Virus record (IMG/VR): IMGVR_UViG_3300006810_000110
Span: 1-41,596 of that record
DNA from: a virus
Length of the DNA stretch: 41,596 nucleotides
Direction: 5' to 3' (one strand)
The position numbers and the translations under genes were made by a program. Below, piece by piece: positions 9,496-23,566 of this stretch. Under the pieces are notes generated by a model. It was not told the origin of the DNA. It saw nothing but the letters and a program-made list of their open reading frames with translations, and did no database searches. Within the stretch, counting starts at the first letter, position 1. Every line of letters starts with the position of its first letter.

Positions 9496-10977
9496 GTGTC
9501 GGACGTCAATAAACTCATCCACGACATGGACATTGAAATGTCGAAGAAGTCGTTCGATTACTTCTTCACCGAAATCTTGGACTTTGAGTTATCAGACCAT
9601 CACAAAGATTGGCTGAAAGGGCTCAACGGTCATCGCTACTACTGCGTTAAGGCGTCTCGTGACCACGGCAAGTCCGTGTTTTTCATGTCGTATGCGCTTT
9701 GGATTGCAGCGTTTCAACCCAATACGCATATCATGGTGTTCAGTCACTCGTTGGAACAGACACTTGAACACATGCGTTTCATTCGCAACAACATTGAATC
9801 GAGCGATATTCTCAAACATCTCAAGCCTCAAGGTAAGCCTTGGGCAAAATCCTACTTTGAATTTACCAACGGTAGTCGTATCATGGCAAAGTCCGTTGGC
9901 GGTGCTACGCGTGGTTTCTACCCTGACGTTGTTGTTTGTGACGACATTCTATGGGGTACGACCGCTTCTGAACTTCAACGTGCAGCCGACTGGTTCTATA
10001 CCGTTCTTCTTCCTGTTCTTCACCACACTGGTCGTCTGATGATGGTCGGTACACCGTTTTCGTACAACGATTTGTATGCCGAATTGGAAGAGAAAGATAC
10101 GTTCCAAGTTGAAACGTATCCTGCTATTTTGCCAAACGGTGAACCGCTTTGGCCAAGTCGATGGCCACTTGATGCACTTAAGCAACGTGAAGAATCCATG
10201 CCTGCTATCAAGTTCGCTCGTGAGTATCTATGTGAACCTATCCACGATATGTCGAGCATGTTTCCTATGGGCCTGTTGGAAAGGGCAAGAGACAAGAGTC
10301 TCGTCTTGCTCGACAAGGCCGAACAAGAGTTTGATGAAAACGGTGATGCTTCTGGCACGTTCGGTCAGCACTTTATTGGCTGGGACCCAGCGATTGCAAG
10401 TGATGCGAGCGCTGACTACACGGCCATGAGCGTTTTGCGAATCTTACCAGACAGTGATGAGAAGCAGTTGGTGCATGTCGTCAATCAGAAAGGTATGAAC
10501 AGTACGGCTCAGAAGCGACAAATCATCATGCTCAACAGTCGGTTCCGACCTGAACTGATTGAACTTGAAGGTAACAACTTCCAGCGTATGTTTGAGGTCG
10601 AATTGAAAGAGATGCGTGAAGATGTCCCTATCAAGACGTTTATGACAACTCGTCAGAAGAAAGAGAGCATGTTCATGAGTTTACTCATGGCGTTTGAACA
10701 AGGTCAAATCAAAACACCTTGGGGCGATGAACGGAGCAAAGAATACACACGCGCACTTGAGACACAACTCAGTCGCTTTGGTATGCAAAAGAATGGACGA
10801 CTTGAGAGCGTCGGTACGCACGATGACTTGGCCATGAGCCTTGCGTTGGCAAACTGGGCTACAAAGGAATTCAAAGGAAGCATTGTCATGCTTGATGATT
10901 ACCTCGATGGATTTGACCAGTGGTTCGGAGACGTACCACAGAGAACCGTAGCAGGAGCATCTTGGTTTACGATATGA
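9496..10977 (+). CDS. terL: Terminase large subunit
   Basis: The 493-residue protein pumps viral DNA into the procapsid and cuts it. The N-terminal ATPase has a Walker A of the terminase type (SRDHGKS, residues 54-60) and a Walker B (VVVCDD, 145-150). The C-terminal RNase H-like nuclease has GWDPAIASD near residue 295, an acidic centre at ELEGNN, and a final THDDLAMS near 441, which supply the metal-binding acids. The length is normal for the family. The start is GTG at 9496, preceded by GGAGTGATGAG. The portal gene lies one gene downstream, the usual order apart from the endonuclease-like gene between them. Confidence 0.95.
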   Translation: MSDVNKLIHDMDIEMSKKSFDYFFTEILDFELSDHHKDWLKGLNGHRYYCVKASRDHGKSVFFMSYALWIAAFQPNTHIMVFSHSLEQTLEHMRFIRNNIESSDILKHLKPQGKPWAKSYFEFTNGSRIMAKSVGGATRGFYPDVVVCDDILWGTTASELQRAADWFYTVLLPVLHHTGRLMMVGTPFSYNDLYAELEEKDTFQVETYPAILPNGEPLWPSRWPLDALKQREESMPAIKFAREYLCEPIHDMSSMFPMGLLERARDKSLVLLDKAEQEFDENGDASGTFGQHFIGWDPAIASDASADYTAMSVLRILPDSDEKQLVHVVNQKGMNSTAQKRQIIMLNSRFRPELIELEGNNFQRMFEVELKEMREDVPIKTFMTTRQKKESMFMSLLMAFEQGQIKTPWGDERSKEYTRALETQLSRFGMQKNGRLESVGTHDDLAMSLALANWATKEFKGSIVMLDDYLDGFDQWFGDVPQRTVAGASWFTI

Positions 10978-10981
10978 TTAA

Positions 10982-12313
10982 ATGACACCAAAAGTTGGGA
11001 TGTGTATGTGGCCAAGTCTGACAGTAGGAAACCCAAACGCTACTATCGACATGGGTCACGACGTGCTCACAGCCATCGCATCCAACCTCCTTGCACATCC
11101 TCACGTCGATGAGAACATTGCCAAGTCAATTGCTTCTCAGACTGTCATCTTTGAAGAAAGCGATGCGCCTCAGATTCACTACGCTCCTTTTTCTCCGACT
11201 GGTGATGGCTGGTTTGAAGACAAGATTGGCAAAAGCGCTAATCAAGTTATCAGAGATTTGCGAAAGGCACGACGTGTGTTCAAAGAAGACAAGTCTGAAA
11301 TTGACCATCTCATCTCAACGATACGCACACTCAAAAGCACAGAGGTCGAAGCGACCCTTGCTACATTGCCGTGGGGCGAACCTCATCGAGATACCATGCG
11401 AAAAATGGGTTTGAGCGACAAAAACTTACGCTCGCTCCGTTTGTTCGGCAACACAAGAAAGTCGAGCATTGTACGAGCGTGCCATGTATGGGAGAGTGCC
11501 GAAGATGCACTGGCGAAACTCGATGAGTATGAAGACGTCTGGGGTGAAGAAGAAAAGAACGCATGGGTCACGGCCATGGAGATGAAAAAAGAAGCCCGAC
11601 AGATTTGGAGGAACGCTCTTCATCAATTCGATAACCTTTCCAAAGAACAACAGAAATGGATGAGAATGGCAAAGGCCGAGATTGAAGAAAAGGGTGCAAT
11701 GACAGCGAGAACCATTACCAGTAATCTCATCGAAAAAGGCGTACCACGTCTCAATTCCAATCGACTTTCCAAGTTGCTCAACATGTACGGTGAAGAGATT
11801 AACATCATCAAAGGTCATCGTAAAGGTGAGTACATGTGTGTTAGTCGAGAAGGTCTCATCATCAAAGACAACTGGGCGTATGCTGCTGGCTTCCTCGATG
11901 CCGATGGTTATATCACAATCACCGAACGTGGAGAGCCAAGGGCAGGCTTCATTGCGACAGGAGACAGGGGAAGAATGCACTGCGAAGAATTGCACAAACA
12001 CATCGGAGCAGGTGTTCTCCAACTCGACCAAAAGGTGTACAAAGACGGGCAGCGTAGCCAGCATCGTGTCAGTTTTTATGCCAAAGACGATTTGTCAAAA
12101 TTGCTGGACAAACTTACTCCCCATCTCCGTATGAAAGATATGCAGGCCAAAGCGGTCATGGCGTATATTCGTGAAACAGACCCTGTGAAGAAGACACAAC
12201 TCAAGCGATTCGTGCAGTTCTCCAACCGAGAAGGAACAGCGAAAGGTGAGCGTTCTCTGCAAGACTGGGGCGTAGACCGTGACACTGTGATGAGTTGGGC
12301 GGAGGGATTGTGA
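10982..12313 (+). CDS. Winged-helix protein fused to LAGLIDADG homing-endonuclease domain
   Basis: The product has 443 residues. Residues 1-225 are alpha-helical and unrecognised. Residues 235-290 look like a helix-turn-helix or winged helix (TARTITSNLIEKG). At about 299-312 lies AAGFLDADGYITI, a clear LAGLIDADG motif whose acidic residues bind the catalytic metal, followed by about 100 residues with the family's beta-alpha pattern. One motif is seen, so it would act as a dimer or have lost cleavage. It sits between terminase and portal and overlaps the portal start. It may be a mobile endonuclease, or a domesticated packaging or DNA-binding factor; the long N-terminal fusion favours the latter. 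Confidence 0.75.
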   Translation: MTPKVGMCMWPSLTVGNPNATIDMGHDVLTAIASNLLAHPHVDENIAKSIASQTVIFEESDAPQIHYAPFSPTGDGWFEDKIGKSANQVIRDLRKARRVFKEDKSEIDHLISTIRTLKSTEVEATLATLPWGEPHRDTMRKMGLSDKNLRSLRLFGNTRKSSIVRACHVWESAEDALAKLDEYEDVWGEEEKNAWVTAMEMKKEARQIWRNALHQFDNLSKEQQKWMRMAKAEIEEKGAMTARTITSNLIEKGVPRLNSNRLSKLLNMYGEEINIIKGHRKGEYMCVSREGLIIKDNWAYAAGFLDADGYITITERGEPRAGFIATGDRGRMHCEELHKHIGAGVLQLDQKVYKDGQRSQHRVSFYAKDDLSKLLDKLTPHLRMKDMQAKAVMAYIRETDPVKKTQLKRFVQFSNREGTAKGERSLQDWGVDRDTVMSWAEGL

Positions 12314-14055
12314 TGGCTGAAAAAGGCAGAGTAGGAAGATTGTTGGAAACGATTACGAATCCGTTCCGTCGAAGAACGACTCCTGAGCCTCAGATGCCTC
12401 TTTGGACAACGGGCATCCAAGAGCCTGTTCTCGTACAAGGAATTACCATTCCAGCACTGTACGCTGTAGCCAATGAGAATCTGATTCTACGAACTGTTCT
12501 GAGTACACTGCAACAAGAGATTTTTCGACGAGGATACCGTTGGGAGAAGCAGTTTCACAAGAAGTGCGTAGCCTGCGACAAAGAGCATCAGCATGACGTT
12601 GAAGTATGCACTGAATGCAACGGAGAGGTACGTGACCCTGAGCCTGACCAACTGGTGTATCCTCGATGGTTGCTTGACCAGCGCAACTCCATGGAACAGA
12701 CCTTCATGGATGTATTGCGTGAAGTTGAATACGACCTTAACATCACAGACGATGCGTTCTTAGTACTCATCAAGGAATACTACATGGACCCTGAAACCAA
12801 CGAAATTTCGTTTTACAGAATCAAAGAAATCGTACGTGGTGACCCGATTTTTATGCGTATCATTGCCGATAAGCGTGGTGTACGGGGCGGTCGATTCCGA
12901 GTATGCCCTATTCACCGAAACGAAGTCAAGTCGTATTCCGAAGACGACAAGTTCTGTCCTACGTGCAACACAGAAATGGAAGACGTTCATCACGTCAATA
13001 CCGCAGGCTCAGGTAAGACACAGTATTATCTCAAGGGCGAAGTCATTCATGTAAGTAAGTATCAACCTTCAAAGTTGTATGGTCGCAGTCCAGTATCGAC
13101 ACTATGGCGTCAGGCCATGACACTTACGGCGATGGACAATTACATGTACACAGCGTACTCAAAGCGTAGAATACCTCGTGGTATTCTCAGCATTTCGACA
13201 GACAATCTTGAATCAATGAAGGCATTTTGGAAGGCTACCGATGAGAAATTGGAACGTGACCCGCATTACATTCCCAAGATTGCAACAGAGGGTTCTGGCA
13301 AGGGCGGTGTCAATTGGGTCAAACTCATGGACAGCCTTGAAGAAATGCAATACATTCCTGCTCGTGACGAGATGCGACAGCGTATCGCTGCATTCTACGG
13401 CGTATCGAACGTGTTCATGATGGACACAGGTAAATCAGGTGGACTCAACAACGAAGGTATGCAAATTCTTGTTACTAATCGCGCTGTCGAATTCGGTCAC
13501 AAAGTCTACACAGAGCAGTTGTTTCCACGCTTGATGGAACAAATGGATGTAACCGATTGGAAACTTACACTGTATCCGAACGAAGAAGAAGATGAAGTTA
13601 CACGTCTTCGACGAGACGAGATGGAAGTCAATATCGCTCAGCGCATGATGATGATGGGCTACCAGCCAACGCTTGTCGAAGACGCCAGTCGTGACATTCG
13701 CTTCATCTACAAGCAACCTGACCCTACACAACAACCACCTATGCCTCAACAAGGCGCACCTATGGGTGGAATGCAAATGGGCGGAGGCATGGGTACACCG
13801 GGCGCTTTGCCTTCTCGTAACATCCCTCCTCAACTCGCAGCACAGATGGGACGACAAGCACAAGTTCCGGGCGCAGCGAATCCCGGTGGTGAAGGTATGG
13901 GACTGAGAAATCGAGGTCCTGCGAGCCCACAGAATCGAACCAGTATGGGTGCAGGCGCTCCGTTTTCTAGCGTACAACAGCGAGGGGCACCGATGGGCGG
14001 TGTCCAACAGGCGTCCCAAAGTATCATTGATGCACGTAACCCAAGAGGGCAATAG
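12313..14055 (+). CDS. Portal protein with two embedded zinc ribbons
   Basis: The product has 580 residues. GGAGG at 12301-12305 fixes ATG 12313, which shares bases with the previous stop. The portal forms the dodecameric DNA gate of the head. The core shows typical portal features: an N-terminal region with a capsid-exposed wing, the SKYQPSKLYGRSPV segment, and IAAFYGVSNVFMM, as in phage portals that end a long helix before the crown. Unusually, two zinc ribbons are embedded: CVAC with CTEC near residues 85-102, and CPIH with CPTC near 197-220. The C-terminus (from about 475) is Met/Gln/Gly/Pro-rich and disordered. The stop is TAG, followed in frame by TAA three codons on. Confidence 0.88.
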   Translation: MAEKGRVGRLLETITNPFRRRTTPEPQMPLWTTGIQEPVLVQGITIPALYAVANENLILRTVLSTLQQEIFRRGYRWEKQFHKKCVACDKEHQHDVEVCTECNGEVRDPEPDQLVYPRWLLDQRNSMEQTFMDVLREVEYDLNITDDAFLVLIKEYYMDPETNEISFYRIKEIVRGDPIFMRIIADKRGVRGGRFRVCPIHRNEVKSYSEDDKFCPTCNTEMEDVHHVNTAGSGKTQYYLKGEVIHVSKYQPSKLYGRSPVSTLWRQAMTLTAMDNYMYTAYSKRRIPRGILSISTDNLESMKAFWKATDEKLERDPHYIPKIATEGSGKGGVNWVKLMDSLEEMQYIPARDEMRQRIAAFYGVSNVFMMDTGKSGGLNNEGMQILVTNRAVEFGHKVYTEQLFPRLMEQMDVTDWKLTLYPNEEEDEVTRLRRDEMEVNIAQRMMMMGYQPTLVEDASRDIRFIYKQPDPTQQPPMPQQGAPMGGMQMGGGMGTPGALPSRNIPPQLAAQMGRQAQVPGAANPGGEGMGLRNRGPASPQNRTSMGAGAPFSSVQQRGAPMGGVQQASQSIIDARNPRGQ

Positions 14056-14438: not shown

Positions 14439-14813
14439 ATGAGCGACAATGGAGAGGGAAACGTTGCTGAGAAACTCATGGGTGCTTTGATTAGCAAGAT
14501 GGAGAGCATGGACGCAGGTATTCAAGTCCTCAAGGCCGAGAACCAACAACTCAAAGCCATGATTCAAAATCCTACGGCCATGCTACGAAAGGCAGGCTTT
14601 GTCTCTGTATCGACACAGCGACCGCAAGATGTAGTCGAAGACGGATTCAGAAATGACGTTGGCGACCTCTTCCTCAAGGGAGAAGATGGTGATGACATGT
14701 CTTTACCAACAACCAATGCCGAATTCCATAAGATGGAATGGGCTGATATTCACGCATTGGCTGAGCAAGCCAAAGACGCCGGAGCAATCGGCAACCCTAT
14801 GGGAATAGAGTGA
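14439..14813 (+). CDS. Small coiled-coil protein with C-terminal WADIHALA peptide
   Basis: The product has 124 residues. ATG 14439 follows GAGGTGAG. Residues 8-48 form a probable coiled coil (leucines and methionines at heptad-like spacing), and an acidic linker follows. Near the C-terminus is MEWADIHALAEQA. A nearly identical peptide, MDWADVHALAGSV, ends the protease-scaffold protein encoded at 20990-22402. A coiled coil joined to a short conserved tail peptide is typical of scaffold or adaptor proteins, so this may be a second scaffold-like component. No named family was recognised. Confidence 0.65.
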   Translation: MSDNGEGNVAEKLMGALISKMESMDAGIQVLKAENQQLKAMIQNPTAMLRKAGFVSVSTQRPQDVVEDGFRNDVGDLFLKGEDGDDMSLPTTNAEFHKMEWADIHALAEQAKDAGAIGNPMGIE

Positions 14814-14817
14814 TAAC

Positions 14818-15207
14818 ATGCGACCAAGATACGAATTAGCCAACGACAAAGCCTACGAACTTCTGAAAGCAGCAAAGACGCTGGAAGACCGCATCGCAAA
14901 GAAAGAGGGCAGTATGCCTGCTTACGAACAAAGCGAAGGCAGTACAGTAGGTCACGCACGCTTTGAGACGCAACCCGGAAAAGTCCATAACGCATTTTAC
15001 AACACCAACAATGTCGTACCTGAGGTTGAAGACGTAGCCAACAAAGGCGCTATCTCTGAAAACAGCAACATTCTAACGGAGACTTCTCCGTATTATCCAA
15101 CAGCATTCAGTACCACTGGTGCTCTTGAAAACACGGCAGGCGGAGACGGTCCAACCATGACCGACTTGAAAAAGTCCGTAGACCGACTATCCAGCCGTCT
15201 CATTTGA
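14818..15207 (+). CDS. Small unknown head-region protein
   Basis: The product has 129 residues, starting at ATG 14818 just after the preceding TGATAAC. An N-terminal helix (residues 5-33) with Lys/Glu/Leu is followed by a polar Asn/Thr/Glu/Gly-rich middle and a C-terminal helix MTDLKKSVDRLSSRLI. No Cys or membrane segment is present and no family was recognised. It is placed immediately before the giant ligase-like protein gene, with only 16 bases between. Confidence 0.55.
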   Translation: MRPRYELANDKAYELLKAAKTLEDRIAKKEGSMPAYEQSEGSTVGHARFETQPGKVHNAFYNTNNVVPEVEDVANKGAISENSNILTETSPYYPTAFSTTGALENTAGGDGPTMTDLKKSVDRLSSRLI

Positions 15208-15223
15208 ACGGCTGGTGATGTTG

Positions 15224-18200
15224 ATGCGAGAAACCTCTCTTGATACACTTGACAGGGCTCGTGAAATCTTTACCAAGTCGTTGATTGACGGTATCGGTAA
15301 ATCCGATGCTGCTGCTGATTTCTTTCTTTCAGCCGTCAGCGCTGAACGCAATGGTTACATTTTGAGCGAAAGCGATGAGTCACTTATCAAGATGTTTTAT
15401 TCTGTTCTTCGTAAGGAAGAAGAAATATCAGGTCAAGCAGGTTCATACAATCTCGACGAAGAGGGTGATGTCTCAGCAGGTAAAGGAGGTGCGTTTCAGG
15501 CTGACGTTGGTCGTGCCATCAGCGCAGGTGCGGGTATGAATTTGGCTGATAACCCTTCATACAACGAACAACGCGTTGTCCCCCCAATGCCCGGTGAGTC
15601 TCTTTCAGGTCGCCAGTTCAAGACAGTCAATGGTGATGCTGATGACCCTTATCGCACACACAACTATCTCGGCTCGTACCTCAATCCACTTCATGGAAAT
15701 ATGCATGACATCGTTGGAGACTTTTATGTTCATTCCGATGACCCTTATGCACAGTCGCAAAGTGAAATTGACGCATACAAAGAAGCAGGTTGGGAAGACC
15801 ACGCGAATGACAATGAGCACGACTTTCTCCTGAATCAGTTTCACTATGGTCGTCTGGATACCAAGCATGGTACAAATCACGCACTCTATGAACAAGACTA
15901 TCGCAATTGGACGCAGCGCAATCAAAGTCAGTTGGATGAACTTCGTTTACGTATGGAGCAAGATGGCAAAACAGATGATGAGATAAGTCATTACTTGAAA
16001 AAACAGCACATCAATCAGAAAAAGGAGGAATGGAAACAGAACCTTGGTTTGATGGATTACCTGTTTGGCATGGAGTGGTTGACTCCCGAAGAGCGAGCAA
16101 AAGCCTATGCTCACATGGAAAAGCATGGCGGGGCCGATGCTTTGCAGCCATTGACGTTTGGTCGTCATGATGGTAACATTGATTTTATGCCTCGATTCAA
16201 GCGCAACTTTCATCAGCGATTTGCTGGATTGTATGACCATTGGAAGCGAGACCCTGCTGGTCCGGGTCATGGGATGGAGATAACGCACAAGCCTTTGCCT
16301 GAGTCGGCTGAATACGTAGAACAAGTTCACAACATTGATGCTATGGAACGGCACAACACACCCGGTAAACAAAACTCATACGCTCGTGCAATAGCCGATT
16401 TCAATTATAGATACGAAGACTATGCGAGAGTCAATAATCTTGCACGTCGAAACTTTGACAACTCCCAAGTGCCGTACATTTACGGTCGTACCAAAGGTGG
16501 TGCGAAAACGCTTGATAATATCGAATGGCAAAAGCGCGTTGCATCTGACAAAAAAAGTCCCACTGGAATTCGTAACAATCACATGAGTTATGAGATGATG
16601 AAACTCATGCTGGGTGTTGGCCCTGACGGACAGATTTACGAGGACGGTGAACACCCACTTTGGGGCGATTTATGGAGAAAAGACGATGCTGAGTTTTCAC
16701 AAGACGAGGTTGATGCCATCATGCAACAGCGCTCTCGTACTGCAAAGCAAACTGCTGCGGCAGGAAGGATGGCCAGAAATCATGGTTCGTTTCACTATGG
16801 CACGTTCATTGACCCAAGCGTTTACGGATTCAACATTGATGCAAATGGCGCACCTTCCAACGAAACGCTTGCAACGTATTGGCATCGCCCATTTTTGGGA
16901 GGCGGGGGATTAGGTAAACATCCGAATGAGTTGTACAATCTTCTTCACCATCATACACTTAGTTACGTTCCCAAGAAAGAAAGTGCTGGTCGTACATACG
17001 ACGAGGCTGGACAAGTCATTGAACAAGAAGATGACATCAGTGACGAATATGCCGAATATCTCGCTGGTCTTGACGGCGGAGAAAGTGAACAAGAAGAGCA
17101 AGAGATGGTTCCTCACTTTGAAGAAACCACCCTTGGAGCAAATCGGAAACAGCACAGTCTTTTGTTTTCAAGAACGGGTAATGCAATCACAGGTCGTCAT
17201 TCGTACAGTGGTGCAAGCAAACACAGCATGTTACCGTTCTTAGGACCGTTTGGTCAGCAAGATGTTAATTTGTTTCAAATGATGGACCGCAAACAATTGG
17301 CAACGGTCAATCCGAAGGGTGACTCTATGGATGCGACGGCGAATATGAATCCGTGGAACGTTTTGTATTCATCAAGAATCAAAGGTGTTTCTGGAAACAA
17401 CGCTCATACCGAGCGCCATACAACAACGGTTGATTCAGCGTTCAACAACAAGGTCAATCGAGAATATCATAACGCCAGAAAAACAGGTGACAGAGATGCT
17501 GCTGAGAAGGCTCACAAATCTCTTCATGGAGAGATTACTGGCCATCTCAGAACACATAATCCACTGGGTGCCATAGGCGGCTCAACGAACACTGAGCAGT
17601 TTATGAATTCTCAAGCCCATCAGTATCATTATCCCGGTTACATGTTAGGGTTTGCAAATCCTCCAATGAGCCCTGCACCGTCTGTGTTGGCGCACGATGA
17701 CAGACGAATTCGACCTACCTTACGTAATCCCGATGATGTGCACTTACTTGCACGACGCCATGCTCATCCTGCTAAAGCCGAACTTGACGACGTTCTCGAT
17801 AAAATCGACCAAGACTATCAATCGCGCATTAACTTGCCCGGTTTGACTGATGAGCAAAAGCAAGAGTTGGAAGAAGAAATGCAACGTCGTACTGACAGAG
17901 CACATTCCAATTTTAGAACGTCGATGTATCCTTCAAGTGAATCACTGAACATCGCACCTGACTTGGCAGGTGAAGGTTTGTTGGAAGGAAGGCTTAGTGA
18001 AGCCCAACCTTTGACAGAGGACGAAGAGCGATACTTTAGTTTGATTGAACAAGCCCAGCCGATGTTCGACAGATTGGAAGACCCCAATCTCAGTGACAGA
18101 GAAAGGGATGAGATTCGCCAACAAATCATACCTATCAATCTAGAGTTGGATGAGTTAGAATCCAGCCTCGACCGTTATGCAGGTACGATTTACCTACGAG

Positions 18201-20980
18201 GAGCAAGCGGTCATCAGAACACATTCTATGACAAAATGGTAGCCGATACCAATGCTATTGCTGACGCAGGGGTACATCTGAAAAACATCGCAGACCCTGA
18301 AACACTGGCTCAGATTTTCAATCCGAATGCTGACCACGCTACAGTAGAAGCAAACATACGCATGTGGGCAAAGATGGCGAACGATTATCTGAACATGGCT
18401 CCACATGATGCTCACGGTATTCACACCATGGGTACGGGTGAGTATTCAGAAGAAGGTTTCCAGCCTCACACAGACATTGGTCGCTCTGTAAAGCAAGCAA
18501 TTCATCGTATGTCTGACCCGCTTGACATTACGCTTCAAGGGCTGGCTTCAACAGAAGGTGGGCTGGCAAAGGGTGTCGAAAACGCCATAGATTCAATCAT
18601 GGACACACTCGGCTTTGACAGAGGCAATCCTCAGTTGCGAAAAACGGCGACCGAGTATTTTGAAAATACGGTCATGCCTCGCCTTGCTCAAACTGGACAA
18701 CATGGCGCTCCAGTCATGACGCTTGGTCAATTGTTCAAAGAAATGTACCCTGACGTTGATTTGGATGCTGCGGTTAAGAGTTTGTCACAGACAAGCGGTG
18801 CTGCTACTCGTGATACCGATACTATGGCCAAGGTGAATGAACTGTTCCGTTCCATCGACCCGCGCAACGATGAACGAAACAGGCAACTCGGCATTCATCA
18901 TCATATGGCGCACAGTACCGACGACCGACATCCAGAAGGTACGATGACGACCAAGGCTTCTCGGTTTGGCAGCGCAAAGAAGAAACGACAGCGATACATG
19001 GACGAGCATCATAACACGCAACAAAAGTTGAATTCAATCATTACAGGGTTCCCTGAACTTGGCGCTGCTGAACAAATCGTGGACAAGAAGCGAGGTTTGA
19101 CACGCGTACCCATTGACCGCTTTGGTCCGAACTCGCATTCGGTGCACAGTTTGTACAACTCCGCAGGATATGCTCACGAAATGGGAGGCGAGTTTTCTCC
19201 GAACTTCGATTATAAGATTTCTCCAAACGGTGAAGTTTCTATTCGTCTGATGCCTCAAGGTAATCCTCAATTGTTGGTTCAGCCACTTGAAACGTTTTGG
19301 AACAAAGTCGCACCTGATGCTTGGTTGCGTATGCTACGTGGACCTGAACATCAAGAGGCAAGAGAAGGACTAAACACACAAGACAGAATAGGTGCACAGT
19401 TCAGAGTCAATTCTGTAGGACTTACACGTAACGCTGACAAAACCAGCGTTGGTAAAAGCGACATTGGACTGGCTGACTTGACCAATCCTGATATTATCCG
19501 CAAAGAACTTGGCAGTAAGATTCCTACGTTGCAACCAATGCATCGTATCTTTGAACTTGACGACCTTGAACAACTTCGTGGATTCTCAGGCGACTGGATT
19601 GTATCGCACATGCCTGACGGCGAGCGAGGTTTTGTCGAAAAGAAAGACGACGAAGTATCATCTGTTTTGTTTGATTTGTCTGACGAGGACAAAGACAACT
19701 TCAAGCAGGTTACTGATGAAGACTTCCACGTCGATGTCATCAAGTTGGAAGACGGCTACTACATCTTCGACGTTGTCGAGTTTGCAGGTAAAGAAGTACA
19801 CGACGTTATCATATCCGACCGCATCAAAATTTTGCGAGGTGGTATGGAGGGTATCGAAAACGTACATGTTCCAAGTGCAAGCGATACAAGGTTGGCTGAC
19901 GATGCAGGTTTGAAATCAGCCGTTGAAGATTTGCAAAAGGAATACGAAACGCTACTGTTGCGAGATGCCAAGTCCGTTTACATGGCAGGTGAGTTACGTC
20001 ATCCAAAGTGGGTCATGCTCAAACCGGGTCGTGACGTTGTTTTACGTGTACTGGAGCGAAGGGGCAACGGTCCTTACACGTACAGGCTCGGTACTGGTCC
20101 GATTACTCAAGATGAACACATCGGTAACCGTGCGGTCGAATCGCAAGGTGAAACCTACATGGATGTCGGTGCAGCGTTCAACAGTCCTGAAAAGTTCAAC
20201 GAAGGTGACCACGTACGTGTCAATGTTGCCAACGTCAGTAAGGTTGAGTCGGCGGAGGACAACACGGTGTACACATTGTCTGGTTCTGAGATTGTCGAAG
20301 AAGCCGAAGGTGAGGGCCTTGTAAGTCAAGAAACGCTGGGTATGCTCGCTAAGTCACTTGATTCGCAATGGATATGCGAAGTTCACCGAGCCAAGAGTGG
20401 CATTCGTGTTATCATGCCTCAGGGTGATGTCGTGTACAAAACGACAGAGTCAGGTGGAATTTGGACAGCGCACTCTCCGTTGGCGTCAAGCGACTATCTC
20501 ATCCGCCTGTCTGAAAGTCAAAGACCTTACTGGAGTCCAATCGCAGGTGCATTGCTCAAGGCTGATGTCGAAATCAAAGAGGAAGTACACGAAAGTCAAG
20601 GTGACGCTAAGCCTCTCATAGAGCCAAAGAAGGTTCAAGATGCTGAGTGGTGGAACAAGAAACAGAAGCAAAAAGTATTGGTCAAAGGTCTCGCTTTGGT
20701 TGATAAATTCTTGAAGAGTGGTGCAGGAGCGGTAGGTCAATCGAGTACAGGTACGATGGGATTGGGCATTGACTACGCTACACCCATCGAATCACCGATG
20801 GGTCCAACCAATTTGAACGACGAAAAGACCATGCCAGACTTCGACAATCGCAAGCGTCCCGGCGAAGACGCTCCTATTGAGCCCGGAGAGGATGAAGACG
20901 ACGACCCTAAACACGTTACCATTCCCACAGAAGGCGGAGAATTGGAGATAAGTAGCGACAAGGCCATCCTTCGTACTTGA
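15224..20980 (+). CDS. Giant head-region protein with degenerate DNA-ligase-like and OB domains
   Basis: The product has 1918 residues. GGTGAT at 15214-15219 favours ATG 15224; GTG 15215 or ATG 15218 would add two or three residues. Residues 1-1400 are rich in His, Asp, Asn and Tyr, with predicted helices, and match no known family. Residues about 1442-1605 follow the order of ATP-dependent DNA ligase motifs: MPDGER (1463-1468) as motif I, IFDVVEFAGKEVHD (near 1515) as motif IIIa, LLLRDAKSVYMAG as motif IV and HPKWVMLKP (near 1593) as motif V. An OB-like segment follows at about 1640-1690 (EGDHVRVNV). The nucleotide-accepting Lys of motif I is Met and the motif III Glu is not found, so it should be catalytically dead. 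The acidic C-terminal tail precedes the protease gene. Confidence 0.8.
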   Translation: MRETSLDTLDRAREIFTKSLIDGIGKSDAAADFFLSAVSAERNGYILSESDESLIKMFYSVLRKEEEISGQAGSYNLDEEGDVSAGKGGAFQADVGRAISAGAGMNLADNPSYNEQRVVPPMPGESLSGRQFKTVNGDADDPYRTHNYLGSYLNPLHGNMHDIVGDFYVHSDDPYAQSQSEIDAYKEAGWEDHANDNEHDFLLNQFHYGRLDTKHGTNHALYEQDYRNWTQRNQSQLDELRLRMEQDGKTDDEISHYLKKQHINQKKEEWKQNLGLMDYLFGMEWLTPEERAKAYAHMEKHGGADALQPLTFGRHDGNIDFMPRFKRNFHQRFAGLYDHWKRDPAGPGHGMEITHKPLPESAEYVEQVHNIDAMERHNTPGKQNSYARAIADFNYRYEDYARVNNLARRNFDNSQVPYIYGRTKGGAKTLDNIEWQKRVASDKKSPTGIRNNHMSYEMMKLMLGVGPDGQIYEDGEHPLWGDLWRKDDAEFSQDEVDAIMQQRSRTAKQTAAAGRMARNHGSFHYGTFIDPSVYGFNIDANGAPSNETLATYWHRPFLGGGGLGKHPNELYNLLHHHTLSYVPKKESAGRTYDEAGQVIEQEDDISDEYAEYLAGLDGGESEQEEQEMVPHFEETTLGANRKQHSLLFSRTGNAITGRHSYSGASKHSMLPFLGPFGQQDVNLFQMMDRKQLATVNPKGDSMDATANMNPWNVLYSSRIKGVSGNNAHTERHTTTVDSAFNNKVNREYHNARKTGDRDAAEKAHKSLHGEITGHLRTHNPLGAIGGSTNTEQFMNSQAHQYHYPGYMLGFANPPMSPAPSVLAHDDRRIRPTLRNPDDVHLLARRHAHPAKAELDDVLDKIDQDYQSRINLPGLTDEQKQELEEEMQRRTDRAHSNFRTSMYPSSESLNIAPDLAGEGLLEGRLSEAQPLTEDEERYFSLIEQAQPMFDRLEDPNLSDRERDEIRQQIIPINLELDELESSLDRYAGTIYLRGASGHQNTFYDKMVADTNAIADAGVHLKNIADPETLAQIFNPNADHATVEANIRMWAKMANDYLNMAPHDAHGIHTMGTGEYSEEGFQPHTDIGRSVKQAIHRMSDPLDITLQGLASTEGGLAKGVENAIDSIMDTLGFDRGNPQLRKTATEYFENTVMPRLAQTGQHGAPVMTLGQLFKEMYPDVDLDAAVKSLSQTSGAATRDTDTMAKVNELFRSIDPRNDERNRQLGIHHHMAHSTDDRHPEGTMTTKASRFGSAKKKRQRYMDEHHNTQQKLNSIITGFPELGAAEQIVDKKRGLTRVPIDRFGPNSHSVHSLYNSAGYAHEMGGEFSPNFDYKISPNGEVSIRLMPQGNPQLLVQPLETFWNKVAPDAWLRMLRGPEHQEAREGLNTQDRIGAQFRVNSVGLTRNADKTSVGKSDIGLADLTNPDIIRKELGSKIPTLQPMHRIFELDDLEQLRGFSGDWIVSHMPDGERGFVEKKDDEVSSVLFDLSDEDKDNFKQVTDEDFHVDVIKLEDGYYIFDVVEFAGKEVHDVIISDRIKILRGGMEGIENVHVPSASDTRLADDAGLKSAVEDLQKEYETLLLRDAKSVYMAGELRHPKWVMLKPGRDVVLRVLERRGNGPYTYRLGTGPITQDEHIGNRAVESQGETYMDVGAAFNSPEKFNEGDHVRVNVANVSKVESAEDNTVYTLSGSEIVEEAEGEGLVSQETLGMLAKSLDSQWICEVHRAKSGIRVIMPQGDVVYKTTESGGIWTAHSPLASSDYLIRLSESQRPYWSPIAGALLKADVEIKEEVHESQGDAKPLIEPKKVQDAEWWNKKQKQKVLVKGLALVDKFLKSGAGAVGQSSTGTMGLGIDYATPIESPMGPTNLNDEKTMPDFDNRKRPGEDAPIEPGEDEDDDPKHVTIPTEGGELEISSDKAILRT

Positions 20981-20989
20981 TTAAATAGT

Positions 20990-22402
20990 ATGAGCGTAGT
21001 CTATAGAGCAATGGCAGTCACTGCACCACTACGAACTTCTCCTGTTTCTCACAGTGGAAGTATCAGTATTGTGAAGGCTGACAATGACCTTGTTATCGCC
21101 GGATATGCATCCGTCGAAATGGTCGATAAGCAGGGTGACCTCATTACACGAGGAGCCTTGAAAGATGCATTTGGGGAATTCATGAAGGCAGATGGATTCC
21201 GCAACGTACAACTCGCACATTCCAACATCCAAGTTGGACAAGTTATTCCTTCCTACACCGACTCAGATGGTCGTGTTTGGAAGTCTGGCGTCGATGATGC
21301 TGGTATGTTCGTTGTCATCAAAGTACGAGATGACATCGAAAAGGCACGAGAAGTTGCCAATGAGATTCGCAAAGGGGCCCTACGTGGTTTCAGTATTGGA
21401 GGACAAGCATTCAAGCGAATGCGAAAGAGTGACCAAGAACATGGTGACTACACAGAAATCTCCAAACTGGAACTTCACGAAGTGACCATTTGCGAAAAAG
21501 GCATAAACCCGGAGGCGACATTCCGTATATTGAAGGAGGACACACATATGAACGAAGACAACGTATTGAACGAATTATCAGGTGTATTGGACAGATTGAA
21601 TGGACGACTTGACGCAATGGAAAAGGGCGAAATGCCAGAAGGTCTGAAAGAGCACATGGCTGATAAGAAAGACGACGACAAAGACGAAGACAAAGGTGAG
21701 CAAATGGCTGGCAAAGATGAAGAAGAAAAAATGTACGGTAGTGCAGAGAACAAAGGCGAAATGGCAAAGGGCGAATACTCTGACGTCATTTCCAGCGAAT
21801 ACTTGAACTGGATGGAAAACACCTTGAAATCTCAAGGCGTAGACATCGGCAACGCTCGTGCTCACTTTGACAACATCAGCAAGGCGAACCTCGGTAGCAC
21901 CCCTGAACAAATCGGAGACGGTGCTGATTACTTCGCTGGACAAGTTAAGGGACGAGCCCAAGAAGGTGGCTCCCCATCAACCAACGCTATCGGCAAACTC
22001 AACAGTGGCGGTAGTGGAGAAGTTGCAAAGGGTTACCTACACCCAAGCGACGTTACTGCAAGCGACTTGGAGGCTGCTTACTCGGTTTACAAGGCTGCTG
22101 CACTTGAAGAGCAATTCAAGAGCAACTTGGGCAACGTCTTTGCTGACCGACTCCATAAAGAACTCCACGCTGAGGCACAAGCACAAGAGGCTGCTTCATT
22201 CGATGCACGCACTCCTCTCGCAAACATCGAGAAGGCTCTTGGTGACTTGAGTTCCCGAATCGACAACATCAGCAATGCTCCAGTACAGAGCGCTGATATT
22301 CGTAAATCCGTTTCCACTGTCGAAGTCCCGTCTACTACGGACCTTGCCAACATGGACTGGGCTGATGTACACGCATTGGCCGGGAGCGTCTTTGAGGCTT
22401 GA
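20990..22402 (+). CDS. Prohead maturation protease fused to scaffold domain
   Basis: The product has 470 residues. Residues 25-180 match HK97/XkdF-type prohead proteases (S78-like): His77 in QLAHSNI, Ser135 in LRGFSIGG, and LHEVTICEKGINPEATF near 162-178 are the family's core elements. It would cut the scaffold and capsid protein during head maturation. Residues 187-470 form an acidic, Lys/Glu-rich, helical scaffold region with Ala-rich helices, ending in MDWADVHALAGSVFEA. The ATG 20990 lacks an SD; TTAAATAG precedes it. A strong SD and in-frame ATG at 21548 suggest the scaffold is also made alone. The major capsid gene follows directly. Confidence 0.88.
   Translation: MSVVYRAMAVTAPLRTSPVSHSGSISIVKADNDLVIAGYASVEMVDKQGDLITRGALKDAFGEFMKADGFRNVQLAHSNIQVGQVIPSYTDSDGRVWKSGVDDAGMFVVIKVRDDIEKAREVANEIRKGALRGFSIGGQAFKRMRKSDQEHGDYTEISKLELHEVTICEKGINPEATFRILKEDTHMNEDNVLNELSGVLDRLNGRLDAMEKGEMPEGLKEHMADKKDDDKDEDKGEQMAGKDEEEKMYGSAENKGEMAKGEYSDVISSEYLNWMENTLKSQGVDIGNARAHFDNISKANLGSTPEQIGDGADYFAGQVKGRAQEGGSPSTNAIGKLNSGGSGEVAKGYLHPSDVTASDLEAAYSVYKAAALEEQFKSNLGNVFADRLHKELHAEAQAQEAASFDARTPLANIEKALGDLSSRIDNISNAPVQSADIRKSVSTVEVPSTTDLANMDWADVHALAGSVFEA
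21535..21550 (+). promoter_or_regulatory. Internal ribosome site and start for a separate scaffold protein
   Basis: GGAGGA (21535-21540) lies seven bases before ATG 21548, in frame with the protease gene at codon 187, exactly between the protease domain and the scaffold region. It would give a 284-residue scaffold. Phage lambda makes its scaffold Nu3 from an internal start in the protease gene C in the same way. This is a strong SD by the window's standards, while the protease's own start has none. Confidence 0.65.
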
Positions 22403-22438
22403 AGCCTGAGGGTGGAAAACAATTAGGAGATGAAAATT

Positions 22439-23566
22439 ATGGCACGAAACTACATGAGAACAATCAACGACATGGAACGCTACTACTACGGAGCAGGAAG
22501 TTCTTCCGGCTATTCCTACAGTGGTTCAGAACTACTCAAGGCGGACGCTCCGCTTTTGAGCACCACTGCTGGTACGTACCAAGCAATCTACGGACGCAAG
22601 GTTTGGTCACAACTAAACCAAGAATTCAACGCATTCTCTATCCTTCCTAAGAAGCCTTGGGACCGAAGTGGATGGCGTGTTGTCACCGCTAAGCCTTCAA
22701 AGGCTGTTGGCGGCGGTATCGCAGAGAACGGTACACTACCTGACACCACCAAACCTACCTTCCAAAACGTCGCTGCAAAGCCAAAGACCATTGCTCACTC
22801 GTTCGACATGAGCGAAGTTGCAATCTTCCTTAACGACAAGGACGACGGTCTTGGCGACATCCGCAGTGTCTTGAAGGAAGAGATGGGTAAGCACCACGCA
22901 GAGCACATCAACGATATGCTTACTGAGGACGTCACAACCGTAGCCGGTAACGACTTTGAGTCACTTGACCGAATCACCACTGGTAACAACTCGATGACAT
23001 CCGGTACACACTACGATGCAAACGATGAAGACATCTACTCCATCGACCGAAGTGCAAACACATGGGCTTTCGCTGAGGACTCGGCTGACAGTGGTTCGAC
23101 AAACCGAACCCTTTCGCTCGACCACCTTGACGAAACCTTCCGTCTCATTTGGGAACGTGGAGGTAACCCTAAGGTTATGCTCACTGGATATGACACCTTG
23201 ATGCGAATTCAGCAACTCCTCCAAGCGCAACAGCGTTTCATGGAAGAGAAGCGAGTTGTTCCTACTTTCAACGGTGTTAAGGGTGTACCCGGTGTCGAGG
23301 CAGGATTCATTGTTGCAACATACAACGGTGTCCCAATCATTCCAACGAAGGAGATGGCAAGCGACGGTATCAGCCGTATCTACATGCTCGATACCGACTA
23401 CCTCTACTTCTGCACTGCTAAGCCAACTCAGTACTTTGAAAGCGGTATTGAGACCGGTGACCCATTCGCCATTAACCGCCTCGGTCAAGAGGGACTTTAC
23501 CGTACAATGGGTGGAGTTTGGACTACTTTCTTCGGAGGTCAAGGTTCAATCCGAGACTTGTCTTGA
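22439..23566 (+). CDS. Major capsid protein, HK97 fold
   Basis: The product has 375 residues. The start at ATG 22439 has AGGAGATG upstream; ATG 22430 is too close to the SD. It forms the icosahedral shell. The order of elements is that of HK97-type capsid proteins: a helical N-arm, a central region of strands (WRVVTAKPSKAVGGGIAENG), a long spine-like helix (RSVLKEEMGKHHAEHINDMLTE is the likely region, about 138-160), and a P-domain and A-domain pattern with NPKVMLTGYDTLMRIQQLL (near 242-260) and YNGVPIIPTKEM (near 296-307). The last is typical of the C-terminal half of this fold. It directly follows the protease-scaffold gene. Confidence 0.88.
   Translation: MARNYMRTINDMERYYYGAGSSSGYSYSGSELLKADAPLLSTTAGTYQAIYGRKVWSQLNQEFNAFSILPKKPWDRSGWRVVTAKPSKAVGGGIAENGTLPDTTKPTFQNVAAKPKTIAHSFDMSEVAIFLNDKDDGLGDIRSVLKEEMGKHHAEHINDMLTEDVTTVAGNDFESLDRITTGNNSMTSGTHYDANDEDIYSIDRSANTWAFAEDSADSGSTNRTLSLDHLDETFRLIWERGGNPKVMLTGYDTLMRIQQLLQAQQRFMEEKRVVPTFNGVKGVPGVEAGFIVATYNGVPIIPTKEMASDGISRIYMLDTDYLYFCTAKPTQYFESGIETGDPFAINRLGQEGLYRTMGGVWTTFFGGQGSIRDLS

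Follow-up and report, generated by a model that had tools for sequence, protein, structure and literature searches.

A probable pseudo-ligase domain in a conserved giant head-module protein of ocean viruses

Relationship to known systems

DNA ligases of the ATP-dependent fold hold duplex DNA between a nucleotidyltransferase (NTase) lobe and an OB lobe. Snurportin-1 has a catalytically dead NTase fold of the capping-enzyme kind that is reused to bind RNA caps and is, to our knowledge, the nearest precedent for a dead covalent NTase turned binder. In this study, we analyzed a ligase-like domain within a giant protein of 1921 amino acids, encoded at 15215..20980 of the virus record IMGVR_UViG_3300006810_000110 (41,596 bp, one strand; the whole stretch analyzed is called the window). 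The gene lies on the + strand, as do all features of the window given below, and was recognized as an open reading frame (ORF) with homologous ORFs at the same place in related viruses, where the giants measure about 1600-2400 amino acids.

Among described systems, the domain most resembles ATP-dependent DNA ligases (PF01068, TIGR00574; Thermococcus 3rr5/4eq5, human LIG1 and LIG3), with which it shares an NTase fold followed by an OB fold, remnants of motifs I, IIIa, IV and V that include the motif I Arg and the motif V Trp, and a fold match at Z 16-17.5. Unlike these enzymes, it lacks the motif I Lys and the first motif V Lys, does not conserve the motif IV Glu, and is built into a giant head-module protein in which the N-terminal DNA-binding domain is not recognized. 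The profile of the snurportin-1 m3G-cap-binding domain (PF21974) is matched in some relatives of the giant, for which we do not claim membership; snurportin-1 differs in being a eukaryotic RNA-import factor related to capping enzymes, with another ligand and context. A third comparison is with HVTV1_115 of halovirus HVTV-1 (Druskaviridae), which is likewise a very large ORF; it precedes the prohead protease by a short distance, and the portal of its virus is related. Its domains, however, are a zeta-toxin and an ADP-ribosyltransferase, and no ligase-like domain was found in it by profile. This 1313-residue protein (L058:18117-22058) has the zeta-toxin domain at residues 145-317 and the ADP-ribosyltransferase domain at residues 1148-1297. 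By analogy, the gene position may tolerate enzyme-derived domains in very large proteins.

A ligase-type fold in the giant protein

Residues about 1443-1696 of the giant are, according to profiles and a predicted structure, an NTase plus OB fold of the ATP-dependent DNA ligase type. The Pfam family DNA_ligase_A_M (PF01068) was matched by the whole giant at E 0.019, by the domain alone at E 4.7e-4 and by the best relative at E 5.6e-9, and all of the 53 representative relatives matched it. NCBIfam ligase models gave weak matches. When the profile of the family was compared with PDB sequences, it found Thermococcus ligases (E 1.4e-4), and weak secondary alignments set the motif I strand opposite IKYDGAR of Thermococcus, with the ligase Lys in a column of Met, Leu or Phe. 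Alignments by hhalign to single ligase sequences were weak (the true ligase of the relative G024, described below, was missed, and the phi2LM21 ligase was aligned over 121 columns only); the fold assignment is accordingly based on the HMMER profiles and the structure.

An initial model, spanning residues 1390-1921, was of low quality beyond the core (predicted local distance difference test, pLDDT, 56), and a tighter core was therefore modelled with an alignment of the 53 relatives. The resulting AlphaFold2 model of residues 1429-1722 had a mean pLDDT of 81.5, with most of the NTase core at about 90. In a Foldseek search of the PDB, the top 50 rows were all ATP-dependent DNA ligases (best E 4.6e-12), and the DALI-like VIA-align gave Z 14.8-17.5 against such ligases. 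The NTase lobe alone (residues about 1443-1605; 19541..20029) was superposed on DNA ligase 3 at 2.6 Å over 163 residues, and we think that the large root mean square deviations in whole-protein rows reflect different NTase/OB hinge positions. The predicted OB-fold domain (residues about 1606-1696; 20030..20302) corresponds to strands 178-268 of the model, and ligase matches cover model residues 1-289.

These results agree with the preliminary description of the window, which had placed a ligase-like domain at residues about 1442-1690. Each motif string quoted there was located: MPDGER at residues 1466-1471, YYIFDVVEF from 1515, ETLLLRDAKSVY at 1578-1589, HPKWVMLKP around 1599 and EGDHVRVNV in the OB part. 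Both the structure prediction and the profile search that it had suggested returned ligases, as did the family profile. The window alone reaches a Pfam E of 0.019 only, as might be expected if an unrelated fold resembled ligase motifs by chance; we give this explanation practically no weight, and it was ruled out by the match of 53 of 53 relatives to the family and by the independent structural match at Z 16-17.5.

In one clade (L261, L266, L270 and L292), the ligase-profile match ends after the NTase lobe, and the OB part may have been replaced by something else.

Loss of the catalytic residues

We collected 366 related ORFs, some of which represent the same contig counted twice, and aligned the 161 distinct NTase sequences among them. 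In the motif I remnant of the window (MPDGER, 19610..19627), Met stands in place of the adenylated Lys of ligases, and none of the 161 relatives keeps the Lys at this site (Met 58, Tyr 24, Trp 22, Phe 17, Leu 13, His 12, Gln 7, Ile 3, Ser 3, gap 2). Thus, the Lys to Met replacement that had been read from the window holds, and the homolog alignment proposed as a check on it reveals a loss throughout the family. A second loss, absent from the preliminary description, was found in motif V (KWVMLK, residues 1598-1603; 20006..20023), where the first Lys of WxKxK is Leu in 96 sequences, Met in 55, Ile in 7 and Val in 3. The position of the motif III Glu, which was earlier described as missing, is probably occupied by Asp (Asp1507 in the window, 19733..19735; 153 of 161 sequences have Asp there and 7 have His). 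This would be a small change and not a gap, with the position placed by hairpin geometry. In the motif IV region (ETLLLRDAKSVY, 19946..19981), the position of the metal-binding Glu holds Glu in the window and is variable in relatives (Asp 47, Lys 34, Glu 31 and others). The residues retained include the motif I Gly (154 of 161) and Arg (152), the Asp of motif IIIa (154; YYIFDV, residues 1515-1520, 19757..19774), the motif IV Arg (160) and the motif V Trp (159).

That the domain is catalytically dead in all sampled relatives is, as judged from these alignments, well supported. In a tree built from 71 non-redundant sequences, 12 changes were counted at the Lys site, none leading to Lys, and the state at the midpoint root was Trp; the lack of Lys anywhere on the tree, together with Trp at its root, indicates that catalysis was lost before the sampled lineages diverged. 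An NTase that is still active through another nucleophile could in principle use the PKW Lys, present in 160 of 161 sequences, or, in certain clades, the Lys that directly precedes the motif I site (18 of 161). This is very improbable because the motif I and motif V lysines are both lost throughout; in addition, the motif IV Glu is not conserved, a shift by one residue along the strand should face away from the pocket, and the upstream Lys is missing in most clades.

The residues that fill the site bear on two further explanations. According to one, which we consider rather unlikely, the domain is a purely structural or protein-protein module, a rigid head scaffold whose pocket is plugged by hydrophobic residues and which has no nucleic-acid role. 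The replacement of the motif I and V lysines mainly by Met, Leu, Trp, Tyr and Phe, a nearly invariant block of the type RD..S.YM.GE..HPKW and the location of the gene in the head module would all suit such a scaffold. However, two residues expected to line the pocket, the Arg of motif I and the probable Asp of motif III, are kept or jointly replaced by His and His in one clade, suggesting that the site is still used. The other explanation, an unlikely one in our assessment, is a pocket-binding pseudoenzyme like snurportin-1, in which the emptied pocket would take up not duplex DNA but a nucleotide, a modified base or the end of a nucleic acid (for example a 5' end or a cap-like group). The Lys position is usually taken by a large residue in relatives, in many cases an aromatic one, and snurportin grips its cap through aromatic stacking (PMC9145092). 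Two of 10 divergent relatives passed the cut-off of the Pfam snurportin m3G-cap-binding model (E 1.3e-6 and 2.9e-6), and 12 of 53 relatives matched the model, mostly weakly, with the window itself unmatched. On the other hand, the structural matches and the majority of the sequence matches are to DNA ligases, and a cap-like ligand is not known from these viruses.

The joint replacement by His of the Arg in motif I and the probable Asp in motif III (7 sequences each) occurs in a clade that includes L247, L259, L276, L286 and L302. From the sequences, it suggests that the two residues still pair within the dead active site.

Conservation and selection

The ligase-like domain is under strong purifying selection, in the part of the giant where constraint is greatest. 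The median ratio of nonsynonymous to synonymous substitution rates (dN/dS) was 0.042 for the domain vs 0.142 for the N-terminal part (60 close pairs, which are not mutually independent). Among the relatives L041-L054, the C-terminal 530 residues are 46-75% identical, whereas identity in the N-terminal 1390 residues is 3-45%. The position of a dead domain in the most constrained part of the protein argues for function, and strong purifying selection on a dead enzyme supports its reuse for a new role, as had been proposed from the window alone. Its place in the genome is fixed as well: among loci found through the ligase-like domain, the portal gene lies upstream of the giant in 116 of 116 and the protease gene downstream in 143 of 147. 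Thus, the dead ligase fold between portal and protease that was first noticed in the window has good support from the profiles and the structure, from the loss of motifs across 161 relatives and from the conserved order of genes.

The same conservation is relevant to the idea that the giant is packaged and injected as a delivered effector, with the dead ligase as a competitor of DNA repair or replication in the host. The 1313-residue protein at the equivalent place in HVTV-1, with its zeta-toxin and ADP-ribosyltransferase domains, indicates that the position can carry enzyme-derived cargo. However, such tight conservation is atypical of anti-host factors, and we regard this idea as quite improbable.

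A possible role in the head or packaging machine

The explanation we favor, at somewhat less than an even chance, is a pseudo-ligase whose adenylation chemistry disappeared before the sampled lineages split, and which has been retained in a minor head or packaging protein as a module that binds nucleic acid without catalysis. It starts from what is seen in the sequences and the model, namely the fold, the loss of both lysines in all relatives, the purifying selection and the fixed position between portal and protease. With adenylation gone, the simplest capacity to be retained would be binding of nucleic acid or nucleotide, and the clamp-like NTase/OB surface might still grip duplex DNA. It would probably hold ends or nicks near the packaging site of the terminase large subunit (TerL) and the HNH protein, or the genome within the procapsid; the giant would be incorporated into the head, with its variable N-terminal part serving as a spacer or assembly region. 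Genes for TerL, HNH and portal lie next to the giant and point to a function in the head or in packaging, for example keeping hold of nicks or genome ends, and both DNA end or nick binding during packaging and presence in the virion are plausible from the fold and this neighborhood. If DNA ends or nicks are bound, the giant would represent a new kind of packaging or head component.

Several observations weigh against this explanation. Ligases of the archaeal and human type encircle DNA with an N-terminal DNA-binding domain, to which no Pfam match was found in the N-terminal part of the giant. Haloviruses with a related portal lack the ligase-like domain by profile search, and the role is therefore not shared by all heads of this type. 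Moreover, the window domain is not notably basic (K+R 11-13%, D+E 16-25%), which weakens DNA binding as the default.

The distribution of the domain was also examined without relying on it. A scan with portal sequences only gave 80 loci, 62 of which carry the ligase-like domain; of the other 18, none has a recognizable protease gene and 4 are haloviruses or their close relatives. Domain profiles found no match in haloviruses HVTV-1 and HCTV-5 or in the methanogen-associated vir335 and vir519. Searches of named phages by tblastn gave no match for the whole giant or for the domain of one relative, and for the domain of another a single weak match, to a genuine phage ligase. Scans of GTDB genomes revealed no cellular or proviral copy of the domain. 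The domain appears to be a widespread and clear pseudo-ligase within the head module of tailed viruses, under tighter conservation than the remainder of the giant.

Virus identity and the DNA ligase of magroviruses

Magroviruses (Magrovirales) are viruses of marine group II archaea, with genomes of 90-110 kb and a family B DNA polymerase. All 16 of the long relatives tested carry such a polymerase; the window, at 41.6 kb a fragment, lacks one. The head-tail module of the window (major capsid protein, protease, portal and TerL) is related to Druskaviridae. The giant-carrying ocean viruses are probably viruses of marine archaea, and their polymerase, size and context fit magroviruses.

Almost all magroviruses have been stated to encode a DNA ligase (PMC10160649), and they have been credited with a DNA ligase of their own in a near-complete replisome (PMC10768690, PMC12999244, PMC10160649). 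In the group A magrovirus contig_156409, one 678-bp read spans parts of an 'ATP-dependent DNA ligase' gene and a prohead protease gene (PMC7318539). Like the giant studied here, this 'ligase' adjoins the prohead protease, as expected if the two are the same gene, and its contig of 118 kb is similar in size to our relatives; unlike the giant, it was reported as an enzyme. What has been reported as an 'ATP-dependent DNA ligase' in nearly all magroviruses may in many cases be this dead domain, whose resemblance to ligase was likely annotated already in 2017. We found no statement that the domain is dead.

In 26 contigs of 80-111 kb, PF01068 matched the giant in 25, and the 26th giant was recognized by the profile of its own family. 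A second ligase-family ORF was clear in one contig (G024) and weak and degenerate in another (G007). The separate ligase of G024 (L395:1222-2361, on the 102-kb contig of L346; 379 amino acids, PF01068 E 2.5e-21) has intact motifs (KFDGVR, FDGELY, EGAMVR and KVK) and shares its contig with a dead giant, which indicates that an intact ligase is detectable when present. An intact separate ligase was thus found in only 1 of the 26 long contigs, whose completeness is uncertified and in which a very divergent ligase could escape. Neither an NAD-type ligase (PF01653) nor an RNA ligase (PF09414) was found in 16 relatives by searches in which the positive controls were matched.

A broader claim, which we hold as possible and on balance doubtful, is that ocean archaeal viruses across a whole order use an anciently inactivated ligase as a conserved structural DNA-end or nick binder of the head or packaging machine, that the 'replicative DNA ligase' credited to most of these viruses is this non-enzyme, and that most of them would need the host ligase. 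The scarcity of intact separate ligases in the long contigs bears on the published magrovirus claim and would change which replication steps these abundant viruses are believed to take from the host.

The degenerate ORF of G007 (L224:997-2376, - strand, on the contig of L180) encodes 459 amino acids near DNA polymerase B and has weak ligase matches, with no Pfam match on its own. Its motif I region, LHYTGTDALV, lacks both the Lys and the Asp, and its sequence would possibly represent a second dead ligase.

Organization of the head module and the giant protein

The head module of the window consists of TerL (9496..10977; phrog_38, E 2.6e-62), an HNH endonuclease-containing protein (10982..12313; phrog_5046, E 4.7e-9), the portal protein (12295..14055; phrog_18178, E 4.4e-67), two small ORFs, the giant, the head maturation protease (20990..22402; phrog_23555, E 1.8e-15) and the major capsid protein (22430..23566; phrog_24667, E 2.1e-56), and this order is conserved among relatives. 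The small ORFs between portal and giant (14439..14813 and 14818..15207) are present in 166 and 163 of 177 related loci, respectively, and matched no family. Nine bases separate the stop of the giant from the start of the protease. Among named viruses, the portal is nearest to those of haloviruses HVTV-1 and HCTV-5 (29-30% identity). The HNH endonuclease-like protein between TerL and portal is unusually long at 443 amino acids, and its phrog_5046 match is limited to residues 295-405; HNH proteins adjoining terminase genes have been described as components of packaging machines (PMC5304195).

The giant was earlier given as a protein of 1918 residues; the ORF stands, and that length is obtained from the ATG at 15224, whereas 1921 codons are counted from the GTG start at 15215. 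Its fast-evolving N-terminal part of about 1390 residues (15215..19381; median dN/dS 0.14) has no recognized domain, as no Pfam or PHROG family was found there and PHROG matches at E 0.02 or worse were treated as noise. The C-terminal tail with its acidic end (residues 1723-1921; 20381..20977) is conserved at 46-82% identity across relatives, belongs to no known family and was modelled with low confidence. It contains the strongly conserved GLGIDYATPIESPMGPTNLxDEKTMPDxDNRKRPGED followed by an acidic stretch, and could be an assembly or protease-contact motif.

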